From positions 9,699,453-9,763,452 of the forward strand of contig NC_087084.1 in the NCBI RefSeq assembly GCF_026151205.1: DNA of 64,000 nt. Reading direction: 5' to 3'. Positions 5,701 to 56,700 of this stretch are shown in pieces; the stretch's first letter is position 1, and each line of letters begins with the position of its first letter. The translations under genes were made by a program, and so were the position numbers. This stretch comes from Bolinopsis microptera. Lineage: Eukaryota > Ctenophora > Tentaculata > Lobata > Bolinopsidae. The notes beneath the pieces were generated by a model. That model was not told the origin of the DNA and ran no database searches. It worked only from the letters and a program-made list of their open reading frames with translations.

Positions 5701-8700
5701 GATTTATGCAATTAATTTGGTCTGCAAAAAATTTGGGCGAGAGGCCCGCTCAAATTTTTTGTCGCCCAAATTTTTGGGAATTAAGGTACCAAGGAAATGA
5801 GATGTCGCTTCTTAATTAGGTTTTGAGATTTTATCAGCCTCATTGCTTATAATTTCGATTTATTTATTAGCAGATCGCATTTAATTTCTGGGTGCAAAAA
5901 GCCGCATCGAATTTTCTGACCAGCACTATATTTACTCGCACACGACCAAAGTGTTAAAGATTCACGTTATCAATTAGTGCGCTCCAGTGAATCGGCGAAT
6001 GGTTCCCACGAAATTGGAATTGAATTTAGACAGAATATGAAAAACAAAAGAAACTGCATTTCAGTAGTACGGGTTTCCGTGGGATGAAAGATTCGGCGTA
6101 AAAAAACGTGTTGTACAGGGGGACCGTGTAATGGAGGAGGTAGCCTGTTTTCCTGGCTATAAGCCGGCTGTAAGAAGGCTATTAGCTAGAGGGTTGTTAC
6201 CGTAACAGCCGGCTATAAGCCGGTCAATATCCGGTCGGTATTGTACATATTTTCCTTTGTGTGAGCCTAACATACCAGGCTTGTCCGCTGCCGCTGGACG
6301 CCGCGGCCCCGGTCAATTTGACCTCGCCGCACGCCGCCGGTACCACCCCCGGCGTACGACGGCGTGAATTATGTAACATCGAATTTTTCCGTATGATCAT
6401 CTGAAAGTTTCACTCAAAATTCAATTTCAGATTTACAAATAAGATAAATAAATAAATCAAATTAAAATCAAATTTTTGCACAGATCAATTTTACTCAATT
6501 GTCGGAAAAAAAGCACGATAATAGACCAAATTTTTGTCTTTTAGGGTCGATCTCACGCCGGCATACGCCGCCGCCGCCGACTGGTTAAGCCACGGCGGAC
6601 AAGCCTGTAACATATACGTGGGAATTATTATGCATTTTAGAGATAATAGCTAGACAAAATTAGAAACAAATTACTAAATTAGGAGATCTTAAAGCTGAGA
6701 TAGCATCATAAACATAATAGTAGTATGTATCGGAATATTGACATAGTGCCTCGCCGGGCTAAAGTAGTGGATGACCTTGCTGTACGGCAAGTTAAACAAG
6801 GATCTGAAACTACTAGGTTCCGTACAGACTCAACTCTGCACCCGTGTCAATATGTTCATTATATGCAAGCCTCTTGATTTATAGTCTCTATCAATATATG
6901 ATTTTCTTTTCAGTCAACCCATACTGCTAAGGCTTAAAACACAAAGAATTCACCAAAGGTGAACAAATATCTTTCAGGTGCATAGAAATAATAAGTTATA
7001 ACTTTATATAGTACCTTTTCGAAATACGAAAGATCGGGTTTTGTTGCACCAAGGCCTCTCATTATAGAAGCTTCTCGGAAACCTCCACGTGATATAGGCA
7101 TCGCTCCCACGTGATCTAGGCAACGTGATCCAGGCAACGTGATCTAGGCAACGGTATCTAGGCAACGATATCTAGGCATCGCGCAAGCCGAAACTATGGC
7201 TTAATAGTAACCCAAAAAGCAAATATACATATTGGTGAATGCCTAGCCTGCATATATGTTATTTATGTAGCCCTCTCTGATAACTGATATGCGTGACAAT
7301 ACTAGGTCCAATAACGGGTAATGTACAAATATACTGTAAAGTACGAGGCACTGTGAGATACCTGGCACAGTAAAATGCTTCATGTTAAAATCCCTGTCGA
7401 CCTTAAATTTATTAATGGATAAAATGTATGGCACGTGTTTTTACTATGTGTCAGGAATGAAGACGTTGACAAAAAGTAATTCAGCTTAAACTATGTAAAT
7501 AAGCTACAAAGATGATATTATGTAAATATGTTACAAAAATGAACAATGTACTGATAGTGATAATGACTAGTAAAGTATTCACACCTTTTGTACAAATTCC
7601 ACAAAGTTAAATACCGAAACCTGTAAACTCTTTTAGTTAACGTCACTGATCATGAGTTGGTACAGGCAATTACCGACCACGTACAGTCACTTTGTCACGT
7701 TGCACAATTAACTAATGGACAATGTGGAATTTAATCAAGAGATAACCAGGAAGATTTATTAACTATTTTATTATTTCGTTTTATTATTGTACTGTTGACT
7801 TTTTGGTTCTCTTGCGATAGTGTAAACGCGATAGCTAGCGCCATCCAGCGTTAATTAGCCTAAGCGTTGGATGGCGCTAGCTATCGCGTTTACACTATCG
7901 CAAAAGAACCGACTCTTATATTTCGCCGGACAACACTAACGCTTAGACCACGCAGTAAAACGAATAAGTACATCTACATTGATTATATACTTTTTCCGTT
8001 TTTATTGCTATTTACACGTGACACGTGTAAATAGAGCATTTGCACGTGCAAACGTGTTTATTAGTAATAACTCGACGCATGAAAGTCAACATATTAATTT
8101 CATCTTTTGATGCGACCGATTTGTATTCCAACCTTCTTCCATCTGTGAATAGCAATTAGGTCGTATTAAGATACGGATCACAAAGGCATTCATTAAATGT
8201 ATTTAATTTTACTGTCTTATCGGACGTTATTTGACCGAACATTAAAATGAACGCTAGGGCCTCTAGCCGCCTAGCTTCCAATTAATGTTCATTCGAATGA
8301 TGTTTGATATGGTTTGTATTTTCTGAATGCGAAGTTGGGAATTTGCCAACTGATTTACCTGCTCATTATCAACTTCTTCCTTTGTTATTGCTATTTGCAG
8401 GTGCAATTAGAGCATTAGCACGTGCAAATATAGGATTTACCTGCTCATCATATCAACAACTTTCTCCTTTGTTATTGCTATTAGCCCGTGCAATTAGAGC
8501 ATTTGCACGTGCAAATGTAGGATTTACCTGCTCATCAACAAATTCCTCCTTATCTTTCTTCCGTCCTAACGTTATCTTCCCAATCATCAGATCGAATCTA
8601 GTCTTGTTCCTGTACTTGTTATTACCAGCACTTGATGCTGCTGACTCACTAAGCCGGGTTTCCTTCATCTTAATATTAGCTGCATCCTTGAAGCTAACTC

Positions 8701-11700
8701 TAGGTCCTCTCTTAGTGGAGGAGGTAGCGATGATCATATCTGCTACTGATTTAAGAGGTCCCTCTACAGCAGGGGAGGTAGCGGTGATCATATCTGCTAC
8801 TGATTTTGGAGGTTCCATTGATTCTATACCATTACTTGGGTTCTCCATTGGATCCGCTGGTACAAACCCCCGAGTCTTTGTGATGGGCAGATAAGACGAT
8901 AACAAACCCGCTTCACGCTTGTCCAACAGCAGTTAAACAATACTCAATACTGATTTTAACTTTTTTTATACACGTGTATAATTTATACATGTGTATTTCG
9001 CAGTGTACATAAAAAAGAGCTGTTCTCTAAAATGCAGCTATTAAAAAAGCGTCAAGTAGCTGAGATACAAAAGAGAACAGTTTGACTCAGTAGAATGGGG
9101 AGCCCTTGCACTATTCACTTGTACTCTCTCAAACATCTACACGGCATAATCGATAGGGCTATAAGGTAGCGGCGACATTTGAGCTATTTATGAGCAGACA
9201 TACTGGGGGGATTATCGAGAGACTTGATTGTGTTGTTAATATGAGGTAATTGGTTATTATATTATGGTTAATATTATTCAATAGATTCATTAGTCGCTTC
9301 TATAAATAGTGTGGATCACAGTAAGATACTAAGTGATAAACACTCGATCTTACCAGAAATTTACTTTTAAAAGTGGGTAAAAAACCCACGAACCAACACA
9401 CGTGCAGGGAATATATTAAATATGCCTTTTGTTTGTTGAATATCTATTTAGACACCTTTGTTTAATGATTATCTTTTATTCATCTTTTGTTGTATCTTCT
9501 TGGTATAAACGACTTATTATGTTATCAAGCAACTGTATCTAGTATTCAGGTCAGACACAATTCTCACGACGGCACGTACTGGCTCAAGGACTTTGCTTAA
9601 TCTGAGAACAACGCTAGGAAATATTGCGGGTTCCGATCACAAGATCGGTGGTAGCAATTATCCTTTCTCTGAAAAACCCTATCAATGATAGTAGCATGTA
9701 CAATGTACATAGGACTAAGCCGAAACCCAAGCGGTATAACGTAAATTGACTAACTGGAAATGAAGAAGTTAGATAAAATATTGTTGTTGGGATCCGCAAA
9801 CCAACAAGACCCAAATCGCAGTGATGACAAAGATCAGATATTTGGTCTTTCAGAACAGCATGAGTAGAACTTTAGACTATGAAATTAAATCACAACTTTA
9901 GTGTGGACAGATCTGTGTCCAGCAGTCATGAGATCCAGACAGTGATACTTGACCGACAAGTGTGGAGGGGATACATAGCTGCTCGGACTTTGGAGCCGAC
10001 CTAAGTCAGTAAGTTACAGATACAGGATTAAAAAAGGCGAAGGTTGTTAGAGACTGGTCTGTGAACAGTGAATCACTTCACAGGAAAGGAACACTGAAAC
10101 TGTTTGTTGGTGTCTCTAGCCCACTTGCCACTCTGGTAATGTAGAAGGTGCGTGTGAAGCAGATGAGATCCCTAATGAGCTCTTGAAGTATGCTGGAACC
10201 AAGTTTAGTGCAGCATTCTCAGATATTGCAAATCCGTGTTTTACGGCCAAAACATGTATCAGTGACATTGGGAAACATATTTTGTATCTCTTAACAGGAA
10301 GATCTTATCTGTGCTAATGCCAAACCGTATCCAAGATTAGGGATTAGGGTATGCGACGAGATTATTTCTCGATAAGATAATTGGGTAAAAATCTTTATCG
10401 GTTGATCTCGATAATTTGGCACTGATAACCGTTAAAATTAAACCAAAATTCCTCCGACTTAAACATAGAAATTTAAGATTTAATCCTTGATACATTTACT
10501 ATTTCTCATGATCAATATAACAGTAGTTATAGTGTAATAACTTTTGCATATTACTAATATAACGTATAAGGCATAAGCCATACCTAAATTATTTTTAATA
10601 CAGAGTAGAGCTCACTATATTATGGAGACCGAGTTATGACTTATGTCAAGTCTTAGTAGTCTTGTGTAGCCTGTGTAACACATACTTAGAAACAATCCCT
10701 CATATCTATCTCCATTGTATCCACACAAATAGCTTCATCACAATACTTGAAGACTTTATAAAAGGAAAATCGATAGAAATTACAAAGACCCCAATAAAAT
10801 TAATTTTATAGTTTGTAATCACACTTCACAAATTATAATTATTTTAATATTGTTGCCAAATGGTACATTAGCAAAAGATTTCAGGCAGGGGACATGCCGA
10901 TCTGGCAGGGATATATCAAACTTCTTAAACTTTCACTTACTGGTGACAAAATAGGCCACAAAAGTTCTATTGTGTCGATCTTGGCTGATTAGGGCAAATT
11001 GTCCACCCCATTTTATATTGCTGTCTTTGTTATTTATTATCAATGGTTATTGTTACTATCCTACAGTACTACTAACTGTTTTTTTGTAGTACATGCCCTG
11101 CTTCCTTCCATTCCTAAACTACCTTACAAGCTCTTCCTCTTTTACACCCTTTTCAATCACTTCATTTCACTCATTCACTTCATATCTTATTACCACAGTA
11201 TCTGCCAAACCAACATGGCCCATGTGGAAGGGGCCTTGACGTTGTTGACCACTTGGTCCTGCTGACGGTCGGCCTCCACTCTCTAAAACATACCTTCAGT
11301 GAAAGCAGATGGTCAGCAAATAGCGATGCTAGGGCTTGTGTGAACAAATCTTGACCTACTTTCACACCTTAGGGACGACTCTCGCAAATGCGAGAGTAAT
11401 GACCCCGGGGAGGGCCCCATTGGTTTTAGTAGGTTGCATTTTATAAAAAATTAAAAAAAAAAAAAAAAAAAATAAAATAAAATAAAAAAAAAAGTAGTAA
11501 TTAGTATTGTTATGATTATTAATTATCAAGTCTTGTAATCTAATTCCAAACAAAAACATTATCAGGAGAAATAAACAGCATTCCCCTGAAATTACAAGAT
11601 ACCCAAAACAAAAGTATGTGGATGATGATGCTGATTTTGTGGATGATGATGCTGATTTTGTGGCTGATGATGCTGATTTTGTGGATGATGGTGCTGATTT

Positions 11701-14700
11701 TGTGGATGATGATGCTGATTTTGTGGCTGATGATGCTGATTTTGTGGCTGATGATGCTGATTTTGTGGATGATGATGCTGATTTTGTGGATGATGATGCT
11801 GATTTTGTGGATGATGATGCTGATTTTGTTGCTGATGATGCTGATTTTGTGGCTGATGATGCTGGAGTAACCGGACAAGTGACATGTCTCATGTCTGTTT
11901 TTAATAAACAAGTCGAGGATAAGTTTTTTTGTTATGAGGTATCAGACGTAGCTACTCAAACACATGCTAATGGTTTTAAAGGTAGTGTAAAAATTGCTAT
12001 TAAAGTATAACTTCTGATTTCTTAATTTGTTTTCAAATTTTGTAAAATTGTGTCAAAAGTTACAAGGATAGGGGTGCTCTCATTGTCCATATAGAACCGA
12101 CAGGGGTCACTTTAAGATACCAATAGAATGCACATTATGGTGGGCATCTTCTTTTATACGACCATTATTATGATTATAAAAGGCTATAAAAAGCTATAGA
12201 TCGTCAACCATCAGAAGATCAGAGTATCTGGAGAGCGACAGTAAAGAAACAAATATTGATTTTTACGGCAGAATCTAACAATATCAATGGTAAATAAATC
12301 GATGGAGGCTTGAGGAGGTTTCAAGTGCCGGAGGCCACTGCTTATCGTTGGATTTGAGAGCGACTTGTGCTTGAAACCAGCTCAGTCATCCACTACGTCA
12401 ATATGCAAATTTAAAAATTCAAAAATATAAAAGTAAGAAAAATATAAAAACAAGAACTTATACAGCTTTACACTTCTTACTGTGTGAAGTATGTACCTTT
12501 AAGAATGGTTGTACCCTACGTTCTTTAAGCCGGGTACCGTACGTACTTTAAGCCGGGTACCCTACGTACTTATCACTACATCAACACCTTGGCAGCCTGA
12601 CACTAAGCCAATTACAGCTCGCTTATAGTTACAGCTCGCTTCGGTTGGAAAATATGGCTCCTTTTACAAGCAAGATCCACTAGGTCTACTAACTGTGAGG
12701 TGCCTCAGCTACATGGATTGAGGTCCCCACTTTTTATATATTGATATTTTTATAACCTCAGACTTTATACTTATTCTAGTTATTTACCTCTCCATCCCCA
12801 TGAGTCCATCTGTCCGTCACTGGCTTCAAAAAGGCAAGAGAAGCCCGTATCATTGCATGCAAAAATACTCAGCTATTGCCTGGCAACGGTTACCATGCAA
12901 ACGAAAGTTTGTAACTTAAACAGAAGAAAAAAGAGAAAAGAAGCAAGGAGTGTCAACCAATAACCAATATGAGAATATGAAGCAAAGTGAACCAAACTGA
13001 AGATAGATTGGTCAAACACGTACAAAACAATGAACATATATAAAAAGTGATTTCAGCTATTGTAACAGCTATTGTTAACCCATTAAGGACCTATGGATAC
13101 CATGATTTGATTAATGATGAGTTAATTTGTTTCAATTAATGATGAGTTATACCTCTTCATCAACAATGTTTTGTCGCCGATGTCTCACTGGCTTCGGACT
13201 TTGGGTGAGGGCCTTGAGCATCTCATAGAGGAGTAATTAGCAGGAATTAGCAGGAATTAGCAGGAATTAGCAGCACGAAGAGATCGAACAAAAACTTTTG
13301 AGCTTTCAGTTCTGATCGACGCCGGGCAAACTTTCCGTATGTATAGATATAAATAATAAAAATAAACGTGAGATCAAAAATAACCCTTTAAAGCAGGTTG
13401 GGTGGGAGTTTCAGTCAATTAGTAACCGAACAATGTCTTATCAATCAAATGAGTCGTCTCAAAACTACTCACAGATATCAGGCTTTAACTATTGTTAATA
13501 GATTAAAAACTTACTCGTTCTCCCATTATTGAATGACAAAGGAAGCTTTCATCTGCTGATGGCTCTATTAGATTATATGAGCATAAGACAAAACTTGCAT
13601 TATTTTTACGAGACACACAGGCGCCGTTATAGACCACAAATTTAACTTCAGTATTATAGCATTATCCGAGGGGTCATTAGACCACAAATCATATTATCCG
13701 AGGCGCCAGTAACGTAATAGGAAGCTATATTCTTCAATCAACGTGTCTAGATCTACTTGTAATTGGTCGTCATTTAGTGCTGTGCACTTCTTTAAAGTGG
13801 CCTTCTTCTTATGTCTTATGACTGACTATACTGACCACCTTGAGCTTAATGCCCCGTGGACAGAAGACTAATAATAATCCTATACTATAAAGGAGTAAAA
13901 GAGGACAAACTTGGAGACTCAGGAATGAGGCATTCCTGACTAAACAATCACATTGATAATTTGCTAATTACAATATGACTATCCTAAATAATCTTATAGA
14001 GAAACTAACTTTAGTGTTACACAATTAAGATACATCAAAAAAAAATCATTAAATCAGTATAATATGGTGGGTAACACGACCTCTGTCCGACAGCGACATC
14101 TGTCCGACAGCACTATTTTTTTGTGTTTGAAATGATATCTCAAATTTGGCACATAGAAATACACCCAAACTTGCACAAATTATTTGTCTTAATCTTACTA
14201 TCTAGAAAGAAAATTGTACGGTAGGATCCGACATGAACTTGTCCGGATAACCTATTTTCTGAGTCGGACAGATGTCGCTGTCGGACAGATGTCGCCCAAT
14301 CAATATGGTGCTATTTCTTTTATCTGCACTACAGTGCATTTCCAAAGCTTCAACCCTTCAAGAACGAGGCCTACGAAACATCAACCGTGAACCGAGTTAC
14401 CCAAACTCGTATGGAGACTCAAGAGAGGCGATATAAAATATACCATTGACTGGCAATAGGCAAATATTTTAAAAAATGCCAATCAAACAAGCCTGGTGCG
14501 AGAACGTGCAACTTGTGCCTGACAGAAAAGCTCAACAGCAGGACCGAGCTAATCTCAAAATGCAGGCACTCAAGGAAATTCCTAATAATGCACTGCTGTT
14601 AACTTTATGAATGAGCAAACTGTCTTAAGAGAATATTTTTAGATCTAATCTAAGTTCCTGACGATTGCTTTAGTTTAATTTCTATAGTATGAAACTTGAA

Positions 14701-32700: not shown

Positions 32701-35700
32701 ATTTCCGAGGAATTGCTGAGTAGAAATTGCTGAGTAGCTCGGATTCACTATCTGGAATGCATAACAGCTCTTCTTCGTAAGTTACTATACAGATTACAGT
32801 ATACGGGATACGGATACCTCTTCCGCTGAGTTCAGCTGTGGGCTCTCTGGTTCTCAAGAATGTATTATGTGAACTAGTCCCGTATCTTGACTGTGACACA
32901 CATACATCGTACTTGTGTGTGGTTCTGATTATACTCAGTAGAGCTGTCGAGGGTAAATCTCTCAAGCAAGAACCGTCCAAAGTAGGCCGATAATAGTGCC
33001 CTATATAATCAATGCTGTCGATGTATTTTATGCTTGATTTTGCAGCTACATTGATTTTCAACCTTGGGCAACAGAAGATCTAGACATCATATTCAATGAC
33101 AGAATACAGTTGGGGTTTCCATTAGCAACAGTCACTATCAGCAACAGGGGGTTACTATTAGCAACAGTTACAATTAGCAACAGTATCATGCATAATTGCG
33201 TACACACAGTGTTAACTGTAAAGTATTGAACTTGTGACCATGCCTATTAAACCCCACTTTGAGTAGAATACCCAGTGGAGCATGAATTCTTATCATATGC
33301 TCACCAACCAGTTAGTAGTTAATGCCATGTTGCAGAAGCACTTCGCTTGATAGTATGAGGGTTTTGCTTTGGTTTTTATATCTGCTTCTGACAATAAAAC
33401 CGGCTGAATTGTCAGATACCAACTGTAATGACGTTTGCACGTTTCTGCACGAAGAACCCGAATGGGGTAGCATTACTGACTTTGAAGGCGCTGCTTTCAC
33501 CCACGAATTGATTTCTAACACAGTGGCTGGTATAATATCTGCAGAATTCATAACTTATTACAATATAATAGATGACTGCACTAGAAACAAGTTACAATTC
33601 ATAAGTAGTCAAGAGGGAAATTATGACCTACCGCTCGCATTTTGGTTCGAACCAACAAAATCAGTCAGTGTGTCCGGATTTCTTTCTGGAGTAAAAAAAA
33701 ATAGTGGATACTTTGCATTCCCTCATGAAATGGGAGATTATTTCCAGTTATCGGACAGGAACCCGAACTTCTATTCGATGCTCATGGGAAACACTAATAA
33801 TGCAACATCTATGCAATCCCTTGAGATCAATTACAAATCCAACGAAACCTGGGAAAAGTACCAAAACAATAACGTCAAACTCCGTGACACAGTCAGGATA
33901 ACAAGTGAAGGGAAATGTGTGGTCTTCAAGTACATCTCTGTGTGTCCTGATGCAACTCCTAGACTCTGTGACGAACCTTCCTCGGTTGTAGAAGCACAGT
34001 TAGGTGAATCCTACAATCTCTATTGCTCTGCTTCGGGTGCTCCATTCCTTGCTGCGAGCTGGATTCATGATGGAGAACTCGTGACGAACTCAAGAGAGAC
34101 CCATGTTGTTGATAAAGCCACACACAGAATCATTTCACAGATAGATATACATGATTTCTCACATGATGACCTAGGAGAATGGACTTGCACTATTCATAAC
34201 AAGAATCTCGGGAACAGTGTGACAAAGACCATCAAATATTCCTACTCAAGCAAAACAACTGTAACCCAAGCTCCATCGCAGGACTATTACATACCAAAGA
34301 ATGATCAACTAACATCATTTGAGTGGACTGTGGAAGGCTGGCCTCTAGATCAAGTTACTTTAGATTGTCATGGAGTTGAAGAAAATGATATCACTAAAGG
34401 TAGCTCAGAGTATCAAGATAACGAACCTCCTATTATTAAGCTTACTTTGACACTACAGGATAAAGATCAGGTATTGTGCAAAGTCACTGACGGGGATAAG
34501 GTTCTAGATACAAAGAACATCACCAAGGTAGGGTTCGGCTGTGTGGCTGGTGAGAAGGGTGTTGATAAAGGCTGTGAGGTATGTCCTCAAGGAGAAACAA
34601 GCCAGGCTGGAAGTATAGAGTGCTTCTCGGTTGAGATTCAGTGTGAAGAAGGAACTTATGGCGTAGAGGATGAATGTGAGGTATGTCCAAAGGGAACAAT
34701 CAGTCCGGAAAATGCTGCGAAAGTTCAGGAATGCATTTTAACAACAAGTAGCTGTGAAGACGGGTCCTATGGAAGTGAAAATGACTGTAAAGTTTGTCCA
34801 AAGGGTGAGATAAGCTCTGCAAGTTCTGTGAAAATACAGGAGTGTGTTAGAGTTGAGAGTAGCTGTAGAAAAGGAGAGTTTGGTTATAACAACATTTGCA
34901 CTGAGTGCCCAATAGGGAAGATAAGTGAAAAGCACTCTGTTAAAATCCAAGAATGTGAAACTGCCACAAGCACATGCGAAGAAGGTGAATATGGCACTGA
35001 CATTTGTCACACTTGCCCCCACGGTAGCGATAGTCCCAAATCTACTGTCAAGATACAGGACTGCGAGTTTAAAGAAAGTTCCTGCGGTGAAGGATACTTT
35101 GGAGTTAAAGATGACTGCTCACTCTGTGCAAGCGGAGAGTTCAGTCACAAAGATGCTGTCAAAGCCAAAGACTGTTTTCCTAAACCAGGATCAAATGAAG
35201 TAGATAACTCAACGAATATTCTCCCTCTCATCGTCGGACTAGGAGGTGGGGTAGCAGTACTTCTCATAGCAGTGTTGATTGTTCTAGTAATACTACTGGT
35301 GCGACAAAAGGGCAATTCATCATCACAACAACAAGACCTACCATTAACCACAAATATAGTAGAGAAGAAGAAGAGTTTCAGGGCAAAGAAGCAGGAAGTG
35401 ATAGTAGCCACCACAGTAAATCCCCTTTATGAAATACACAATCTGGCCGATAATGAGAACACCCAGGATGCCTCGGTGAGCCAGCCTCAAAAGACTGCAG
35501 GTAATGTCCCGCAAGAAGGAGATGTCCATGTTGAGGATGATGTTGCTGAGGAGAGTGTTTACGAACAAATGCTACAAAGCTATCCCAAAAACGATGCAGA
35601 AACCTCTGAGGACACCTACACAACCCTGGACAGACCAAAGAAGAAACTAGGGCGATCTTTTTCAAGCAAGGGTGATGCTGTTGTGGAGATTCAGTCCGCT

Positions 35701-38700
35701 TATGAGACACTGAGTGAACATGTCGGAGAGGTGTCGGAGATAAAGGAGTTAAAGGAGATAAAGGAGATAAAGGAGGCAGTCGGGAAAGACAAAGGCAAAC
35801 TAGAAAAAAACAGCGAGACAAAAGGAAAAGGTCTGGTGATTGACACTCAGAAAGACATCAAAGATATCATCATCAAGAACCAAGGTGATATTGTTGGTAG
35901 AAAAGTCGATGTTGAGAGCGACGATGAGGGAGACTATGATATTCTCGAAGACCCTCCTCGGCTTATAAAACCACGTGATGATCCTGGTTGCCATGGCGAG
36001 GTTCCTGGTTACCATGGTGAGACTGCGCAGTCCACAACCTCGCCTATCTACAGCCAAGTAGATAAACGGTAAGAAGTAAAACACAAAGTCCGACAATTCT
36101 TAATGGTTCGTTTTTCCTTAGAAAGTCCATATTAGAAATATGATTCTGCCTGGCTAATCTTTCAAACTCGTCACTCGTCAGTCTGTTATTATGGTTACGA
36201 GAATCCGTTTATTCAACAAGTTGAAATTTAAAGGACCAGTTAACTGAAAACAAAGTTATCCTCATATTTTGACAGATTGTGACAAATAGCAAACTAAGCA
36301 ACGAGTCGAAATTCCTAAATCTCTAACTGCTCTCTAACGCGTGTAAATAGCGTTTGTATTATTATGGCGATGACGTCATAAAGTCCCTTGCGCGCGCAGA
36401 GGAGCTCGTTAGACTGTATTTTACAGGTAGAAAATGGACATAATACAATGTTTTTCCCCGAATAACTCGAAAAGTAAGTAATTTAGGGTACATGTTGCTT
36501 CATAACATGGCCATTCTGCACAACTTGCACACATTCAAAAACCTTTAGGGCCTTCATAGCCCAATTTACCAGATACCTATAGTTTTGCATGATTTCTGGA
36601 AACGAAAATCAGTTTTTCGCAAATAACTGAAAAAGTAAGCACTTTAAGGCATATTTTTGTTCGTAAGTCATATATCAATATGCTAATTGCGGTTCTTTTG
36701 CACCCTTTCTAAAGACTCTATCACGATCCTATCGAAAATGGGCTCAGCACCACGCCCAAAATGGTTTTTGGCGAATTTCTCGAAAATTAAGGATTTTAGG
36801 CCATGTGTTGCTCAATAACTCCTATATAAACATGCATATGCGGCTTCGTTTAGGCCTATTTTGAAATCTCTACGACCTTCAGAAGCAAGGGGTCGGTTAC
36901 GTTATTGGGTCAATATGGGCGTGGCCCTCCTGGGTTTTATCCACGGCCAAAAAAATGTCTTGTCTCCAAACGAAAATCGTTTATTCATACCTTCGGGAAG
37001 GTCTGTGCAAAGTTTCGTGAGTATTTGAACATTTGCAGGTTCATATCCATAAATGTCCATAAATGACTGGACTACACAACTTTAGAGTTAACTTTGGGGG
37101 GGGGGGGGGGGGGTCCAACCCGATCATTCCGATCATTCCGATCCCGATTTTGGCCTCATCAACCCTCATATCGGAAAAATCGGGAAAATTTAAATCTTCC
37201 CTCTGAGGTTTCTAGGCGATATAGGTAGCTATTTCTGTACTTAAATATGACAAGAAATCGATTGGTGGTGGTCCCAGAACTCCAAAATGGTATCTTGTTC
37301 CAAACAAGAATCGTTTCGTCCGAAAAACAACACAATGTCGAATCAACTCTTGTTAAACAGAAACATCCACCCCGGTCCACAATTGAAAGAGGTACGGTTG
37401 GTAATAACAATCGTAACAAATAGCGAACGCTTTAGTAACTTTTGATTTAAATTGTCTCTACAATTTGTCTCCACAATTTGTAACAGGCTATCTGCAGAAA
37501 TGGGTAGCACGGTTAATGACTGGTCCTTTCTCAAACTTCCAATCCTCAGTTAGATACAAAGAATAGTCTACACAATTTTCAATAACATTAAAAGGGATGA
37601 AAATCACTTTATTTATCAAAATCTTTATTTATCATGTAACAACTTTTCCATAGTACTGGAGAGTAAAACTCTATTAAACAAAAAAATTCTCGAGCACATT
37701 TTGAGTCAGTAACAGTAACATGTCAATATGTTACAGACTCAAATGCGTTTAAAAACATTTTAGTAACAATAAATTGTGTAAACTGATGAGGAGGAGGAGG
37801 ACAGAGGAGAAGGAGGACTGAGGAGGACAGAGGAGGAAGACTGAGGAGGACCAGGACGAGCACTAGGAGGATGAGGACGAGGACTAAGGACGAGGACTAG
37901 GAGGATGAGGACGAGGACTAAGGACGATGAGGACGAGGACTAAGGACGAGGAGGAGGACGACTGAGGAGGAGGACTGATTAGGAGGAGAAGGAAGAGAAG
38001 AAGGAGGAGGATGAGGAAGAGAACTGAGGAGGAGGAGGAGAAGGAGGAAGACTGAGGAGAAAGAGGAGGACCGAGATGGACTGAGGAGGAGGAGGACTGA
38101 AGAGGAGAGGGAGGACTGAGGAAGAGGAGCAGGATTGGTGGAGGAAGACGAGAAGGAGGAGAAGGAGGAGGACGAGAGCGAGGACGAGGAGGAAGACTGA
38201 GGAGGAGGACTGTTAAAAAGGAGAAGGACGAGGACTGAGGAGGAGGACTGAGGATGAGGAGAAGGAGGACTGGGGGAGGACTAAGGACGAGGAGGACTGA
38301 GGAGGAGGACTGAGGAGGAGGACTGAGGATGAGAAGGAGGACTGAGGATGAGGAGGAGGAGAAGGAGGACTGGGGAGGACTGAGGAAGAGGAGGACTTAG
38401 GGAGGACTGAGGAGGAGGAGGACTGAGGAGGATGATGAGGAGGAGGACTGAGGATGAGGAGGAGGAGAAGGAGGACTGGGGAAGGACTGATGAGGAGGAG
38501 GACTGGGGGAGGACTGAGGAGCAGGAGGATGACTTAGGAGTAGGAGGAGAAGGAGGAGAAGGAGGAAAAGGATGAGAGGGAGGAAGAGGACTGAGGAGGA
38601 GGAGGAGGAGGACTTAGGAGTAGGAGGAGAAGAAGGAGAAGGAGGACTGGCGAGGAGGAAGACTGACGAGGAGGAGAAGGACTGCGGAGGAGGAGGACTG

Positions 38701-41700
38701 AGGAGAAGGACTGCGGAGGAGGACTGACGAGTAGGAGGAAGAAGAGGACTGAGGAGGAACAAGATGAGGACTGAAGAGGATGAGGAGGATGAGAAGGAGG
38801 ACTGGGGGAGGACTGAGGAAGAGGAGGACTTGGGGAGGAGGATGAGGAGGAGGAGACTGATGAGGACGAGGAGGACTGAGGAGGAAGACTGAAGAGGATG
38901 AGGACAAGGACTAAGGACGAGGACTAGGAGGATGAGGACAAGGGCTAATGAAGAGGAGGAGGACGACTGAGGAGGAGGACTGATTAGGAGGAGAAGGAAG
39001 AGGAGAAGGAGGAGGAGGATGAGGAGGAGGACTGAGGAGGAGGAGGATAAGGAGGAGAACGAGGAGGAGGATGAGGAGGACTGAAGAGGAGGAGGATAAG
39101 AAGGGGAATGAGGAGGAGGAGGAGGATGACTCAGGAGGACTCAGGAGGTGGAGGAGGACGAGGAGGAGGACTCAGGAGGAAGACTGAAGAGGAGGAGGAG
39201 GATGATGAGGATGAGGACTGAGGAGGAATACTGAAGAGGACGAGGACTAAGGACGAGGAGGAGGAGGAGGAGGACTGAGGAGGAGGAATGATTAGGAGGA
39301 GAAGAAAAAGGAGAAGGAGGAGGAGGAGGAGGAGGAGAAGGAGGAGGATGAGGACTGGGGGAGGACTGAGGATGAGGATAAGGAGGACGAGGACTAAGGA
39401 CGAGGACGAGGACGAGGACGATTATGAGGAGGACAGAGGATGAGGACTGATGAGGAGGAGAAGGAGGATGAGGATGAGGACTCAGGAGGAGGACTCAGGA
39501 GGTGGACTCAGGAGGTGGAGGAGGATGAGAAGGACTCAGGAGGAGGAGGACGACTATGAGGAGGACTGAGGAGGACTGATGGGGAGGAGAAGGAGGATCA
39601 GGAGGAGAAATGAGGATGAGGAGGAGGAGAAGGAGAAGGAGAAGGAGGAGGACTGGGAGTAGGAATGAGGAGGAGAAGGGGATTGAGGAGGAAGGTGAGG
39701 AGGACTGAGGAGAAGGGCGAGGACGAGGAGTCAGGAAGAGGACTGAAGAGGACTGAGGAGGAGAAGGACTCAGGAGGAGGAAGACTTAGGAGGAGGAGGA
39801 GGAGGACATCTAAATGTTTTGTCTGTTTTTGTCCGTTTTTGTCCGCCCTACTTTTTGTCCGTTTTGAAAATACAGGGAACCGAACGGACACAAAACATGA
39901 TCCCCCAGCCAAGCATGTGTTACGATACAAATGTACTTGACTATACATTTAAGGTGCAGTGTACTAGTGATATTATGGTATGTTTAAAGACCGGACCACA
40001 AAATATAACCCGGTACCTAGTGTTGTACTAATACATAATAACAACTAACAGGGATAAAATTAATGAGCAGAAACAATCGATCTCACGTCAAGAGGCCAAA
40101 GCACTCGGGTCTGGGAGTACATGACAACTCCAACTAGTAGTGAGCATACTAGCCCCTGCAGTGGAAAAACACATAAAACATACTATTGGAATGTCCAATT
40201 AGTTCGTTTTCTCATAACAATATAGCATATGTAGGGGTTCTGGTTGAATTATATCACTTCTGAGAGGTTTTAGAGATCGATTCTCTAAAATTTCTCAATT
40301 TTCCGATTTTTCCGATTTTTCCGATTCCGATTTTGGCCTCATCAACCCTCATATCGGACATCGGGTTGGACCCCCCCCCCCCCCCCCCCCCCCCCCCAAC
40401 TTTAGAGAAACTCATATGTCATTTATCTCAAATTAAGCTGTTAGTGTCCATGATCAACCTGTTGCGACAATGTTTTACGTGAAATGTAAAAATCAGGAGT
40501 AATATAAAAAGTGTATTTTTAGATTAAAGTGCTAGCTCATAGTTTTAGAATTGTATAGATTAACGTTGGTCGTTTAGCCATCTAACAATCGATCGTGCCG
40601 TAATATATGGCCAGAGAATAATAGGGTCTTGGAAATTCTATAGTTGTTCAGTGGGTCGATTGACTGAACACGTTTGCACTTGGTATTTAAACTTACCAGT
40701 AGTTTATTTATGTTATGGACCGATGATAATGCAATTAGGATAACAACTAGGTAAGCCGTAAGTCTAATTCAAAACACACCGTACACTGCAATCAGTATTA
40801 CTATTTGGTAGACCGGGTATTTTGGCGGGAATTCTGTTCCCACGGCACTGTTCTGATAGAAGCTACTTCTACTAATGGTCCCAGAGGAACGGCCGTAAAA
40901 TAGCCAGACTTCTTGTCTCCTGTACTGGCTGACACAAGCGAGTTAAAGTTAGAAATTTCGCTATGCTATAAATATAATTGCTCTCGGAATTGAACAAACT
41001 CTTACTTATCTAGATCCTTTCTAAATTCGTTAGAGTTTCATGGACTGGGGAAAAATAATCGGTACAGTCTCCCTTGTGTAATTAAGCAATGAAAACAATC
41101 CACAATTATCACATATGACATAAGTTGTAATAGCAGAAACTTTCTAACCGTACATTCACCCGCCACTGTTCAAGAACCTATATCACTGTTTAAAATCATG
41201 ACGTGAGCACTGTACATCCAATCAGCTATTCCTTTAGTTAGGATGATAGCCAAAACTATAAGGATTTTGGAGAACTAGGGTAATAGTCATAATTCTAAAA
41301 TTTGAGTGAGTTACACGTGTTTTATTGATGATGATAAACATTTGCAATGTATTACGCCATGCAAGCGCGCACTGAGGGACTTTATGACGTCACGAGGCCA
41401 CAGCTTATTATTGCAATAAAACGCGTTACACGTACGCTAGAGAGTTGGTTCTTTCGGCGATACGATTCTTTACCAGTTTGTCACAGCTGATTTAAATCTT
41501 AGCCAAATTGGAGACTACAAAATTTTCAGTTATCTGGTCCTTTAAATAGATTCACAAATTAAAATAGCTCGTCTCCTTTGCATGGGTCGTCCTATTATTC
41601 TTATGTTGCATAAATATAACTTAATTCAGGAATACTAATCTCTCAAACACTTCAGTCAGTTACGAGAGCCCCTGTCTAACGTATCACATCTCCCTGAGAT

Positions 41701-44700: not shown

Positions 44701-47700
44701 AAACTGAGAAGTTCAATTAATCGCCTGCGTAACCGCGGCAACCTGTCAAAATTTGTAAACGGAGCGTGATTTCTCGATCATATCAACTTGTTGCCATGGT
44801 TCAACACATAGCACCAGTAAGCTTATCGCGACTGTAAAATGTTTTAATCAACAAAAAGATGTTTATTGTAATATTTCATTGGATCGAGCACTAAGAGGGC
44901 ACATAAGCTAATGAAACAGTAGGAACATAACAGTATTAATATAAATACTGAACAGGATAATATTAATATAATGCTACACGAGAATAATGTAACAGCTAGT
45001 ACAAGTGTAATCCTTAAAGAAAACGGCTACAATTTGTGTAATCTTTAAAGAACTTTGAGAACTTTGAGTGCCACTTAGCAGACGGTCTTTTGTGAATCAT
45101 CCCTTTATGGGAGGGTTTAGCATTTATACTCCCTCTCAAAAGCTTGCGGAGTAACTATTTGACAGTTTTCTGTTGTTAACACTTTTATAACGTCACAGTG
45201 CTTAAGAGGGATCGTATAAAAGCAAAACAGGCAAATTAACAAGTTGAACAAATTCCCGCTTTTTCATTATAAGAGTGGCAGTTGTATAATGTATATGAAT
45301 GGGAATTAAATAATTCTTTACGTTGTAATTTGTCTTTGTGATTTATCTTCCATAGTTTGATTATTTTGTGACAGAAGCCGTCAATATAAAGCCCCCGCCG
45401 CCACAATTTGATATAGCAAACAATATTAAAATACTTTAACCATAGTAACAGAAACTTAAAAGACAAGATCAATCCTAGGCGACCTACGTTTAGTGTTTTG
45501 AAATACATTTAGCAGTTTAATGTTTTGTGATAATTGCCGCGCGTTAATCATTTCAAGCATAAACAAGAAACTAATCGATGATCATCTGTCATATGATGAT
45601 TTTAAAAAAATAATATGAACCTGTACCTCTGAGAGCTTTTCACGGAACTAAAGTTTTAATATTTTCAACAAGTAATTTTATTTTTGATTAAGCTGCAGTG
45701 ACAATATAAATTTCGTCGTATAATTTCGCAATTTTTGAACGGACCAGTAATTGCTAATGCGGAAATAAATAACTTTTAGCAAACTAATAAATAACTTTAA
45801 GCAAACTAATCACTTACAATAAATAACGTTAACCTGCACGTTAACCTGCACGTAATAACGTTAACCTGCACGTTAACCTGCGCGTAATAACGTTAACATG
45901 CACGTAATAACGTTAAACCTGCACGTAATATAACGTTAACCTGCAAAGTGCACGTAATAACGTTAACCTGCACGTAAACCTGCACGTAATAACGTTAACC
46001 TGCACGTAATAACGTTAACCTGCACGTAATAACGTTAACCTGCACGTAATAACGTTAACCTGCACGTTAACCTGCACGTAATAACGTTAACCTGCACGTA
46101 CCTCAGTGATGACTGAACTCTTCCTCAGTTTATTCAGTCCTAGTTCCACTTTCTCGCTCAGTATATTACTGCCACTATTCTGAAATTAATCATGTTGTTT
46201 GCTATTGTTCTCGGTTCAAATGAGGTATAAGCTACGTAAAACTACTGCAGAAATGTAATACTTCCTTACGTAAAATAAGTAAGTATTGCTCGCGGTTGAA
46301 TACTGTGAATAGCAATAGAATTATCTAAATAAAGATTAGAGATATTATTGTACTACTATTCACTACAAGAGTACAAGTAGTAATGTTTGAACTACGTTGC
46401 AGAGATTAGAAATATTATTGTACTACTATTCACTACAAGTATAGTAATGTTTACGTTGCAGAGACTAATTTCAAAAGCTCACCTGCATCTCACCGAGCTT
46501 TCGGAACAACTGAAAATAATAACAACTTAAAACGAGTTTAGATACCGTATACTCATATAACGATAACAAATTAAGGTATTAAATAACCGGCTAGTTCAAG
46601 TTGAGGTCTATAAGTATGATTTTATCCGGAGGTCTGAACAAGTAGTAAAGTTTTCTTTAGATCAATAGATACATTTTCCTTTACAAAAAGATGTTTCATG
46701 ACAGCCCTGGATTTTTACAAGTGAAGTTAGCTGAACAAACTCTTAACCCGGGGGAACAAAGATTCATTCTAAAAATAAATGGGAAATTCAATAAAATATA
46801 CTTGTTTTTCTGTCCTATTCGTCTTATATTGGCACAAGATAGGTCTTTGCCACTTTTCAGTTGAATAGTCCACGTACATAAGTACGTAGAAGTACGTAGA
46901 AGTAGAAGTCAACGTATAAAGTCAACGTATAACATATAGGTACAATGGTAGTAACGCTCGGAGGTATGCAAACATTTGGAGGAAGGCAATGCAGATTGCA
47001 GGACAGTCGACAAAATTAGCATAATTAATTAATTATATGTCGCTGATTCACATAATTATTTGTCACTTATTGACGGTTTGGTGTCGTTTAAACTTTTAAA
47101 GGAGTATATACAGGCATTTCAGTCAAGAGACAACTACAAAATTGGTAAGCTAATAACCAAGTTTGTAGCCAACCTACAATTAGCTTCAGAATTCTGTCTC
47201 TTTCGTATAATTCTGTATCTACACAATGGTAAGGTGAACCGTATATTTTATATATATTATACATATGTTAAACTTAATATGATAACAATAAGTGAACTTA
47301 CCGTATACACAAAGGTAAACATTTAAAATGGTATAGGGGGAATCATTCAGGTCGAGTATGCAGCAGCATGCAGTTATTAGTAATATAAATCATATGGTAA
47401 TATTATAATATATTATATATGAGTATTGCTGAAAGCACAGTGTAAGGCCTACACGGACCGCCCCTAACTAGCCAATCCCTGTTTACATGCCGTGTAGCAG
47501 GGGACTAGAAAGAGCTAAACTAGTAAGCGGGGCATAACCAATATGCCAATATGCCAATATTATATATGTTAATATAATAACAATTAGTAATTTACGTGAG
47601 TTAACTCACCGTGCTTATTGGTCCAGTAATGTAAAAGGAATCGTTCCTATTCGTGGCTAGGTAAGATTTAGATTGTACGTGGTTAATAAAGCACTGTGTA

Positions 47701-50700: not shown

Positions 50701-53700
50701 AACCTGAATTTTGAATATTTCCACCACAATATTATGTTGACACTTTTATCCACTCAGCTAAAGTGACCTCATCAACAAGAAATATCGCACCAGTGTCCAA
50801 TAGGTACCTAAAACCGACATATCGTACCTTAACAACTAAAGCCAAATCCAAGATTAGTGTGTACCTAAAACCAACATCATACAGCTACTACAAAATCCTA
50901 CTTTTAGTACAAATATCTTATTTATAATTCGAAAGATTATGTTTGTTTGTCGTTTGTCGTCTGTAAGCTAGAGCGTCGATTACATTTTAATCGGCTGTAT
51001 CTTCGGTTGTGACGGATATTTTTGGATGCGATAAAAACTTAGCTTCCTCCCTGTGACCACGGGTTTTCTTATTTCTAGTATTAACTAATGTATAAAATAA
51101 TGAATTGAAGAAGACAAACCTCTTTATTTTTCTGGAAAACAGGATCTTGATCTTCCTTCTCTTCCTTCTGGAATTAAGTTACTCGGTTAGAATTAAGTAA
51201 CTTAGTTAGAATTAAGTTAGATAATCCCCTTCAGTACATTAACTAAAAGACAACTCATCACATGACACATAACAATAAAACCAAAATTACTGAAATTTCA
51301 GTTCGAATGTTCTCGTAATTGATATCAAACAATTGGGTTTCACCAGTGGCGTAACGAAGGGCCTCGCTGACCTCGCTGTGCTGGGCGGGGGTAATCGTCG
51401 TTTGAATGGGTACACGACACACGTACTTATACACGACACACGTACTTAAGTTCGACACGCACTCTAGTTCGACACGTACTGTTCGACACGTACTGTTAGT
51501 AGTAAAACCTAAGGTTTTACTACTAACCTTCGACAAGAAAATTTCGACTGTCGAACTAGAGTACATTCTCACACTTATTCTGCTGTATCCGTACTCAAGT
51601 TCGACACGTACTCTAGTTCGACCCGTACTGTAGTTCGACAAACCCTAATGTTCGACTCTGTCGAACTAAAGTGCGCTACCTGGACTCATGGTCGACACGG
51701 ACTAAACTTCGACAAGAAAACTTCGACTGTCGAACTAGTGTACATTCTTACATTTTTTCTGCTGTATCCAATGAGGTCTAAAATGTACCGAAGTCCGAAC
51801 TCTATAATCCATATCTATGAACATGTTATTCAATGAAATAAATTATTGACTTCAGACTCAATTGTTATCGTTGTGACCCTTTAACAGAATTATAGACTAA
51901 GCGGAAAGATAAAAAACTATCGTGGTAACCCGTACTCCGTTTTGTATATCTAGATTGTAGTTGTAGAGTACGCTATATGAATATCTACCAAATACCACAC
52001 TTTATATTATCACAAACGACTAGTAACCGAGTACCGGTCTAGAGATTTGGCTGCTGAACCGGAAACAGTCGGATATCAATCTATTTTGGACTCTAGTTCG
52101 ACACGTACCGAAGTTCGACAAGGGTGATATCTGGCGAACTTAAATTAATTTTGAACATATTGCAACGTTACGCCCCTAGACTTTGAACAACAATCGCACG
52201 GAGGTTCCAGCGAAAATCAAAATCAAAAATATTCCAAAACCTACGATCTAATAATGTTCCCCTAGGTTGTCCTTTATACTACTTCAACTACTTCTACTAC
52301 TTAATGGGAAAACTGTTGTCCACTGGTCCAGGTAAATGCGTATTATAGTTAAGCAGTGAGCTAGACTACTACTACTTCTTCCAGGGCTACTACTACTAGC
52401 ACAGCTAGAGTTCCAATGCATGGAATTTTATAACATCAAACAACTAAAATCATTCATAAAATCATCAAACGCCAGATATCCCTGCTCCTTATTTATACGG
52501 TGACTAAAATTTAGTAACGATATAATTACAGTACGGTATCGTAAAGATGATCGAAATTCTGAAAATGTATAATAAACCCTTTTACTCTTTAGCATCTTAC
52601 TACCCTTTAAATCGTAAACGAAGAACTGCAATTTGGCCACCATATGAAGATCTAGAGAGGTTATATAAACTGCTTAACCTACAATTTGGAATGTTACGGA
52701 CATCCATGTAGGTATATGCGGGCTAGTTGTGACTAGTTGTGACTAGTTGTGACTAGTTGTGACTATTTGTGACCATTTATGACCAGTTGTGAGTGATTGA
52801 TTATAGCTTCCCCGTAAAATTAAAACGGTGGAAATGATTATCTTTAAGATCTGTGAAAGTGAGGATGCAAGGTTTGATATCTTATTACCATAATTTATTT
52901 TCTCCTAAAAAGGACACGGTGTTTATCAGCGCTCTTTACCCGTTAAATAGGAAATGTCAGAATTAACTGCAGGTTTTTACTAAGCTTTCAGTACATTTAA
53001 AGTAATAATTTTGGTATTAATTCCGAGCACGTGCTAAAGTACTCGATATCAAGTTTGTTTGATGTGTTTTTAAACGCGGATTCCGAATCTCCCCACATTA
53101 CATAGGGTTAAAATATTTTCCCCCAGTTATTAGCTTAAAAAACTGTTTTTATCACGCGACATGGCCATATAAGGAAGTAGGTCAAATACTGCAGAATATC
53201 GCGGAATACCGTGATAACTTAATAATAACGTACCTCAGAGGCACCATTATACCGTGATAACTTAATAATAACGTACCTCAGAGGCACCAATATACCGTGA
53301 TAACTTAATAATAACGTACCTCAGAGGCACCATTATACCGTGATAACTTAATAATAACGTACCTCAGAGGCACCATTATACCGTGATAACTTAATAATAA
53401 CGTACCTCAGAGGCACCAATATACCGTGATAACTTAATAATAACGTACCTCAGAGGTACCAGTATACCGTGATAACTTAATAATAACGTACCTCAGAGGC
53501 ACCATTATACCGTGATAACTTAATAATAACGTACCTCAGAGGCACCAATATACCGTGATAACTTAATAATAACGTACCTCAGAGGCACCATTATACCGTG
53601 ATAACTTAATAATAACGTACCTCAGAGGCACCAATATACCGTGATAACTTAATAATAACGTACCTCAGAGGCACCATTATACCGTGATAACTTAATAATA

Positions 53701-56700
53701 ACGTACCTCAGAGGCACCAGTATACCGTGATAACTTAATAATAACGTACCTCGGAAGCCCCAATATCAATCTCAACCACGTTCTTGTTTTCGATGACCAC
53801 GCCGGACTCTTTTTCTCCTCCATTACTGAAAAAGAAATTGTCAGTTATAGTTATCGTTCATCGTATACTTAGATGCAGTGAAACTATCGGACTGCGATTA
53901 ATGGGACTTTCCACCCATGGCAACATTATTGGTGCGTGTCAGTTATCTTATAAAGTCGTGTGTGTCAAAACACTACTAATGTTTCACCGAAGAAGAATTT
54001 ATGAGAATGTAAAGTAAGATCCAAAATTCGACTGAAAAAGATAAGAATTTTAACACCAATATAAAGAGAGAATAATAGCATTTCCAGTTTTTCAGACTTA
54101 AGCTTACTCACTAATTTACCGTCAATGATGAATGTCAAGAAAGAAAATAGACTGGTCATAAAACAGTTTAGATATTAGGACGCAAAGGTTACATGTTTAG
54201 ATATGACTTTCATCAAATTAACCAATAGAAATGCCGTAGACACTCAAAAAGATTCAACTCTCAACTAAGATTTAATGATCCAGTCTTCGTACCTGTCCAG
54301 GGATTCTACGCTACCATCAATACTGCAGGATTAGTGAATAAACCACAACGTTTTTTAAACTATAATTACGTAGAAAACCCAATCACGTTAATGATTAATG
54401 CCAATATCAAGTGTTAAATATGGCGCCATCCTTATTTCTGTTATTGCGCGCGCTATTATATGGGAGTATTGGACCCTAGCTTAAGCTCTAGACAGTACAT
54501 AACACGTTACTTAATTAGTGATTTATGATCCAACTTTAAACCACAATCAGTAAGATCACGATAACAAACTGTACCTAGTTGACTCAGGTTTAGGTTCGTC
54601 TCCCTTCTTTTTCTTAGGGTCCTCACTCTCGTCAACCTTGTCCGGGTTGGCCATAACGTAGACTTTGTTATTCGGCGTCACGCCTTCCGCCCTGAGGGGT
54701 AGTGTGTGTAATGGTGTGTTCCGCTTGAGGCGTGGGGTCAGCCCGAATATATCGACTAATATCAACTGATATCGACCGGTCGATATTAGTCCCCTCAAGT
54801 CGCCCATGGGTCTGACCCCATGCCTTGTGTGAGCCTTCTGCCCTGAGGGTTAGTTTGTTTTAGTTTGAGTGCGAATTCATGTTTCACCTTGAGGATTAGT
54901 GTGTGAGCCTTCCGCCCTGAGGGCTGGTTTGTGCAATTGTGTGTAATTGTGTGCCCTAGCTTGTGAGCTAGTTTGCATAATTTATAATCGCCCTGAGCTC
55001 TGAGGGTTACATTATGTGCAAGGGTCTGGAATTATATATTTTTGTGACTGTTTTTGTAATCTATAAATCAATCTATTATCTTTCTGTTACCATGTTTTGA
55101 ATTACCCGATCACAATATGCTAACAAAGTAATATTTTAACTGGAACCCAATACAGAACCCAATAGATACTACAATCAATTACGTACACATCCATTGCCGT
55201 TATGTGTAACAAATATTATGATAACAAACACCGCTCAGGTACTGAATACCATCCGATTACAAAGTGAGAATGATGAACATTTTACAATGTATAGTATACA
55301 CACAATGTACAGAATACATACAATGTACAATATACACACGTGTTTACCTTGGAAAACTGTTAGTCAGCAAGAAAAGGGAATTATGTCCAGGTAGTCCACT
55401 CATGGCTCCAAAGTGAGATCGGCTTTACAAGATATTGCAGACGCAGATATGTGTAATATATGTCGCATAACTACATATATATAGATATTTGTTTGTGCTT
55501 CGAAAAACCAAGGGGTTACAGCTAAAAACCAGGATTATCTGCCAGGACAGGCAAGCCCCGGCTGGGGGCTATAGGGGGCAGCTTCCGTAAGATTCTTGAG
55601 AAAATGAAGGCTTTTTTAGTGTGCTGTGTAAACCGTTCTAATGTCATATGGCCCCAGATTAACGAGAACCAGTATGACTGACCAGTTTTATCAAGACTAT
55701 GAATTGTATGAAACTGTGAAAATAACATCTATTCAGATAAATATTGCAGGCCATTTCTTGGACATTGCACAACAGAAACATGGCCTTAACCACGATAAAG
55801 AAAACATCTGTAAACCAATAACACGACCAAGCGTTTATATCAACTCCCTCAATCAAAGAAGTCTTAGCCATGGCCCATGCACGTGAGTACCTCGTCACGT
55901 GGGCACATGATCACGTGATACTAGTCACGTGACCACAGTATCTACCTGTTTGGTGACGTCATCAAGTGCAGCTGAGCGGGTGTGCAGTGAGAAACTATTG
56001 CGCAATTGCAGGGCAACCTTACTAGGACAAAACAAACAGCTTATGGAGATTAGGGTGAGATTTTATATGTGAGAGAGCTGGGAGAGACCTCTACTCTTTA
56101 CTCTCTAATGTAAGAGAGAGCTAGAGTGTGAACTATAACAGTGGACAGTGGGTACCACCACTGCAAGACATGGTTTAGATCAAGCAACAAGTACCATAAT
56201 GTCTAGTATAGTTACTAGTAACTCTAGTTACTAGTAACTACCTATAGTTACTAGTAGCTCTATTGGTAGCTGTAACAGTAGCTCTAGTTTCTGAGTTACA
56301 ATTAGCTGGATCAGATAGACCTCTAGTGTAAGAAGAGAAAAAGGAGGTGGAGAGCTTGTATTAAGGCCCCAACACACTGTGACCAAGGACAAAAGAAAAT
56401 CGTGATTATTTAGGCCAAAAATAGTATAGTTAGATTAGGAAGCGACAGGCTCGTCAGGCAAAACAATAGCATTTATATTAATAATCGTTAGTGTGCACTG
56501 AGTAGTATTAAGATCTAAACAGACTCTTCTTCATGATGAATACGATTGAAACATTGTCAAGTTAGAAAGCGGTAAGAGGTACATGGCTGTAAATATGAAT
56601 TTGAAGCTAAATTGGATTAAAAAGATCGAAATTCTGTTTTAAAAATCCTGGCTAATATCCCGGCCAGAACGATAATCCCGGCCGGGACAAAAACGCCAAA

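Follow-up and report, generated by a model that had tools for sequence, protein, structure and literature searches.

The minus strand of a 64,000-nucleotide window of the Bolinopsis microptera genome (C13:9699453-9763452) carries predicted coding exons together with tandem repeats that take in splice-site sequence. A preliminary description of the window had proposed that, in one gene, unrelated minisatellites begin exactly at splice junctions and copy splice signals, and all the arrays named there resemble splice signals when the minus strand is read. Exons were predicted with a small exon finder trained on the window and on five random 40-kb blocks; these 264 kb in total were also used for the junction tests, and the sampled DNA has a GC content of 37-40%, which fits the 38.5% published for B. 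microptera (PMC11797021). The genome has 18 innexin matches (PF00876) and no match to the nuclear-receptor zinc finger (PF00105), a search that gave nothing in the control genomes either; sponges are not known to have innexins, nor ctenophores that zinc finger. Donors were scored with a generic animal weight matrix.

At 53.7 kb (Table 1), where 12 extra donor copies had been described between 53.2 and 53.75 kb, we found 13 units of 43 bp, the first of them holding the real donor. The 12 extra intronic donors (53706, 53663 and so on down to 53233) score 6.52, identical to the real one. All 13 units share the same 26 intron-side bases; unit 1 departs from the consensus at 4 of its 17 exon-side bases as against 0 of its 26 intron-side bases (Fisher P 0.019). 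The last 12 nt of the exon show three differences from the intron copies, all synonymous in the predicted frame. This pattern, a uniform intron side next to a deviating exon side in unit 1, is what homogenisation among the intron copies, combined with selection on the exon, would produce. The two extra donors described at 8.34-8.53 kb were likewise found, each scoring 6.07 as the real donor does (n=2). The arrays do not begin exactly at the junction, as had been stated, since the units include the last 17 nt of the exon at 53.7 kb and the last 10 nt at 8.5 kb. In both arrays, a reading frame continued past the exon runs into a stop ahead of the following donor copy, and the use of a decoy donor would therefore be unproductive. 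Genome searches with the 43-bp array (simple repeats skipped) and with the 8.5-kb array (whole genome) returned only the arrays themselves.

Similar arrays were found elsewhere in the genome. Block B2 (C3:3000001-3040000) contains an inverted gene pair, 93.8-98.4% identical in three aligned stretches, in which one member has six copies of an exon end with its donor and the other has one, the last 60 exon bases being identical. The intron is present in both members, and the breakpoints of the array share ATC, as judged by eye. The pair may be paralogues or an allelic misassembly. Repeated or inverted gene copies were seen at L018-L021 in this block, at C1:4254005 and C1:4378223, and at C7:6754013 and C7:6935049; such copies, and innexin pairs of identical score, are either recent segmental duplications or haplotypes left over in the assembly.

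Among the 100 listed of 431 matches to CAGGTAAGT, nine arrays have at least three copies of this motif; five start where a coding exon ends, three do not and one was ambiguous. The exon-end position was exactly as predicted for L040, L041 and L045, was established by homology for L046, and was assigned by eye for L039, where the exon finder had called a stop at the array start. L041 shows weak similarity to WD40 (E 0.0001 and 0.0056, both below cut-offs). L046 is a homeobox gene on C10, at about 4.507 Mb, in which the first donor of a 35-bp array directly follows homeodomain positions 1-45 (Pfam E 2.2e-13). The homeodomain sequence QIQVQ/VWFQNRR (the slash marks the junction here and below) can be read only via this first donor, VWFQNRRAKCKK follows the next acceptor, and an acceptor lies outside the array. 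The exon finder overshot to the second donor, but the homeodomain identifies the first as the correct one; the arrays are thus a trap for gene prediction. In addition, a predicted donor in block B4 carries a 12-bp array, and the weakly 7tm-like exon of L003 (Pfam E 0.0073, below cut-off) starts a 16-bp array, at one of seven distinct loci (L005 and L006 are one array).

Across ten arrays that were measured, each unit includes 5-34 nt of exon and 1-77 nt of intron, and the unit lengths are 12, 20, 23, 29, 32, 35, 41, 43, 48 and 87 bp. The exon parts at loci outside the window amount to 11, 8, 12, 22, 27, 24 and 34 nt, and to only 5 nt in L039. In L041 and L046, 27 of 29 and 34 of 35 nt of the unit are exon, and an exonic AAGT or TAAGT aligns with the donor GTAAGT.

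The preliminary description had expected tandem repeats to be enriched at junctions, which was not borne out in the 264-kb sample. The 127 exons scoring at least 6 were reduced to 106 non-overlapping ones, 102 of which were kept as not mainly repeat. Repeats called by Tandem Repeats Finder (TRF) cover 4 of 100 donors and 2 of 99 acceptors, in comparison with 10.9% of random non-exon positions (n=20,000) and 0.8% of exon positions (n=5,000). A junction was counted as copied when a 24-mer recurred with at least 21 identical bases within 600 bp, leaving out three donors and three acceptors near block ends. By this measure 4/97 donors (window 2/16, random blocks 2/81) and 2/96 acceptors (1/16 and 1/80) have copies, as against 136/1500 random non-exon positions and 112/800 donor-like sites outside exons. 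The looser threshold of 19/24 gave 5/97 donors and 2/96 acceptors, with 64/670 intron positions near junctions and 9/772 exon positions as controls. All copies of the four duplicated donors lie downstream, on the intron side. The two acceptor hits are 54691, which may belong to a first exon, and position 28423 of B2, which lies in a transposon-like open reading frame (ORF) and has its copy on the exon side. In the sample, such repeats are therefore no commoner at predicted junctions than in the rest of the non-exon sequence, and at acceptors they are probably rarer than background (9.1%; binomial P 0.006). Tandem repeats make up 13.4% of the window and 3.9-22.8% of the random blocks, so some junctions of the window are expected to fall inside repeats by chance. 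Across 154 repeat loci, a donor score of at least 4 was reached in 22 units, in 14 reversed units and in a mean of 18.4 shuffled ones, which is no clear excess.

The coordinates of the window features are collected in Table 1. The claim that repeats hold the real splice site as their first unit stands for the 53.7- and 8.5-kb donors and, provided that 54575-54691 is an internal exon rather than a first exon preceded by a repeat, for the acceptor at 54.69 kb; it holds partially at 46 kb, is weak at 31 kb and is unsupported at 13 kb. At 46 kb the real donor GAG/GTACGTGCAG scores 6.52 and the copies CAG/GTTAACG score 2.80. The array of about 12 donor-like copies described at 45.8-46.1 kb is present, with weak units; it starts within the donor, so the real site itself is not the unit copied and, strictly taken, the array does not span the boundary. 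A whole-genome search with it returned itself and one weak 73% match. The acceptor context at 54.69 kb recurs upstream with 21/24 identity at offsets -151 and -225 (scores 3.76 and 3.10 vs 4.36), in agreement with the recurrence reported over 54.69-54.93 kb. The doubling of the acceptor in the 31.1-kb exon is weakly supported, as the exon finder prefers the acceptor at 31107 (score 3.39) to that at 31124 (2.02) and the repeat sits upstream of the preferred one. The supposedly tripled branch region at 13.24 kb is a real 10-bp repeat, and the stringent exon run predicts no exon there.

Table 1. Predicted exons and tandem repeats at splice-site sequence in the window (the slash marks the junction).
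Feature	Position	Strand	Details
Short predicted exon IDGSVESLD	54293-54322	-	Phase 2-2, low score 1.9, joins neighbours in frame
Predicted coding exon	54575-54691	-	Acceptor CCCCTCAG/GGCGG, exon finder score 12.6; could be first exon
Two upstream copies of acceptor context	54692-54941	-	Sites 54842, 54916
Predicted coding exon	53750-53825	-	Phase 2 to 0, donor GAG/GTACGT, exon finder score 11.8
43-bp x 13 array spanning donor	53206-53766	-	Unit 1 = exon end + real donor
Predicted coding exon	46102-46179	-	Donor GAG/GTACGT, exon finder score 7.9, phase 0-0
Array of TTACGTGCAG/GTTAACG-type units, weak donor-like copies	45822-46100	-	Starts inside real donor
14-bp x 2.7 repeat, acceptor-like sites	31126-31166	-	Upstream of predicted exon 30924-31107 (or 31124)
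10-bp x 3.9 repeat, CTGCTAATTC on minus strand	13235-13273	-	Without supported exon alongside
Predicted coding exon ending KEEFVDEQ	8528-8856	-	Donor GCAG/GTAAAT, exon finder score 30.8
87-bp x 2.4 array spanning donor	8352-8551	-	Extra donors 8440, 8358

The sites had been assigned to one gene, which is not established. Reading phase joins 54575-54691, 54293-54322 and 53750-53825, and separately 46483-46509 with 46102-46179; the sites at 31.1, 13.2 and 8.5 kb are not connected to these exons, and a plus-strand ORF lies between. No name for the minus-strand host gene was obtained from Pfam searches with eight ORFs or from PDB sequence searches. The plus-strand ORF amid the minus-strand exons (33322-36069) is intact, encodes 916 aa and has an Ig domain (Pfam I-set E 9.8e-10), with cysteine-rich repeats and a transmembrane stretch recognised by eye.

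Minisatellites that span exon-intron boundaries are known from amphioxus as 'mirages', in Adh3, the globins BflGb6/BflGb9, troponin C and PGBD5 (PMC3087553, PMC3902484, both citing Canestro 2002 for the original report). As described there, the repeats cross the boundary at 5' or 3' ends and hold AG/GT signals in many copies, the copy number varies between alleles, and the boundary unit stays outside homogenisation. In the present arrays, the units likewise span predicted exon-intron boundaries, with that of L046 anchored by homology; the unit lengths fall within the mirage range of ~10-160 bp; the boundary unit of the 43-bp array escapes homogenisation; and the C3 gene pair, with six copies vs one, shows the same copy-number instability. 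The arrays are thus further cases of amphioxus-type mirages in a new lineage. They are very probably local tandem duplications across junctions that are tolerated on the intron side, and boundary-spanning arrays are real and recur in the genome, while we consider it most likely that they are neutral. The earlier argument that unrelated repeats behaving alike call for one explanation has held up, and the phenomenon extends to loci outside the window; the explanation supported is mutational.

Mechanistically, one breakpoint of a duplication would fall within the last few to ~34 nt of the exon and the other 1-77 nt into the intron, so that exon end and donor are copied together; slippage at short matches would fit this, and the AAGT or TAAGT in the exons of L041 and L046 may have acted as slippage primer. 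Further slippage or unequal exchange could then multiply and homogenise the intron-side copies, while the pattern of differences suggests that selection on the protein preserves the real exon copy. The original donor, the one farthest upstream, is used in the homeobox gene, as homology shows, and presumably elsewhere. With the first donor, next to an intact exon, in use, the extra donors would be tolerated bystanders, and the minisatellite would appear to start at the splice junction. No junction-directed machinery is needed, because tandem repeats are abundant in this genome outside exons.

Several observations weigh against this neutral, mutational explanation. The exons are predictions of a finder trained here, and some are surely wrong. 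A re-run gave 5/96 donors with copies, the fifth (B0, 11384) having them upstream, on the exon side; without short-repeat masking the counts were 7/98 donors and 5/101 acceptors, several within coding repeats, and across score thresholds and maskings donors with copies ranged from 3/72 to 8/116. Donors with copies are denser in the window than in the blocks, but the window was chosen for its arrays. In motif-array counts, which are counts of units and are inflated by satellites, AGGTANGT gave 6095 matches and its reverse 355, AGGTAAGT 1260 and its reverse TGAATGGA 11, and CAGGTAAGT 431 and its reverse 0. Only one of nine AGGTANGT arrays on C1 starts at an exon scoring at least 6 (L036, 8.6); L037 (5.6), L034 (3.5) and a lysine-rich stretch in L030 (5.8) are doubtful. 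The large and uneven surplus of donor motifs over reversed motifs is one remaining doubt. Control motifs of the same composition gave 24 (TGGAATGA), 223 (GATTGAGA), 752 (AGTAAGGT) and 1706 (AGAGTTAG) matches, AGTAAGGT being a poor control because AAG/GTA is itself donor-like. With this spread, a real donor preference is neither shown nor excluded. L030 and L031 (C1:37400-38400 and C1:761950-762950) belong to a 32-bp satellite whose unit holds AGGTAAGT, which inflates the motif counts.

The exons could be false and the GT-rich motifs be in the arrays by chance, with no real junction present. The host exons have no protein match in Pfam or PDB, and on C1 the majority of donor-motif arrays do not adjoin predicted exons. 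The phase consistency of the exons, the synonymous differences at the 53.75-kb exon end and the homology of the homeobox case speak against this, and we consider it unlikely. The preliminary description had named decoy donors and slowed splicing as a possible function; in such a reading, extra U1-binding donors would slow or regulate splicing, for instance through unproductive transcripts with early stops. The equal donor scores at 53.7 and 8.5 kb, the stops before the next copies and the excess of donor-motif over reversed-motif arrays would agree with such decoys, but near-identical gene copies have six donor copies or one, the sample shows no enrichment at junctions, and the 46-kb copies are weak. 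The function is thus unsupported and, in our view, quite unlikely. It appears very unlikely, too, that the donor itself primes the copying, with exonic AAGT in the WD40-like and TAAGT in the homeobox gene slipping against GTAAGT and seeding arrays, that introns of this lineage thereby grow from their 5' ends, and that ladders of equal donors throttle the splicing of some genes.

Intron birth had also been proposed. In that process an AGGT-bearing exon segment is duplicated in tandem and gives a new intron, and the arrays would be introns in the making; the nearly all-exonic units of L041 and L046, with their AAGT/TAAGT aligned with the donor, are what makes this conceivable. Since the intron of the C3 gene pair exists with six donor copies and with one, and was thus not absent where the duplication is absent, and since the acceptor of the homeobox gene lies outside the array, we regard intron birth as highly improbable. 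An introner-like element or minisatellite-bearing transposon inserting at junctions is extremely improbable: to the eye the 8-kb unit looks like a palindromic stretch close to 8.05 kb, but the three window arrays, searched against the whole genome, gave the window and a single weak match (73%) rather than the same sequence as introns at many loci, and the units hold the local exon end. A mobile-element origin of these arrays, which are local and unrelated to each other, was therefore rejected.

In the open literature, judged by title, we found no earlier report of such arrays in ctenophores, though one may exist elsewhere; searches not limited to ctenophores turned up the amphioxus and human studies alone. 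Compared with the amphioxus mirages, which are reported without interference with splicing (PMC3087553), the present arrays are from another phylum, their carriers include a homeobox and a WD40-like gene, and their rate per junction was estimated and is not above the non-exon background. Human segmental duplications likewise have internal tandem repeats with minisatellite expansion at exon-intron boundaries (PMC2812944); the human cases, as described there, often change the exon or keep the repeat in transcripts, whereas here the copies are intron-side and the exon is preserved. Splice-site sequence is also copied when introns are gained by tandem duplication of exon segments containing AGGT (PMC3087553), but the C3 pair has its intron with and without the array. 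If our interpretation is correct, boundary-spanning minisatellites are not a lancelet oddity and recur in a distant animal lineage. They would amount to many natural experiments on the choice of the first among equal donors by the splicing machinery, and both intron growth and exon fragments within introns could originate from them.

The window has further repeats and remnants. A purine-rich GAG-type array of two kilobases lies at 37782-39806, with similar translated fragments beside L007 and L044, and a 28-bp x 31 minisatellite at 60262-61134 has no high-scoring predicted exon adjoining. A remnant on the minus strand (1205-1864; E 0.0003, below cut-off) is like the zinc-binding region of a reverse transcriptase, and one on the plus strand (4934-5452) resembles a DDE_1 transposase (E 8.3e-7). 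Two pairs of inverted repeats of ~0.85-0.95 kb were found, 691-1533/10663-11492 with 95.6% and 19429-20370/21892-22816 with 91.6% identity.

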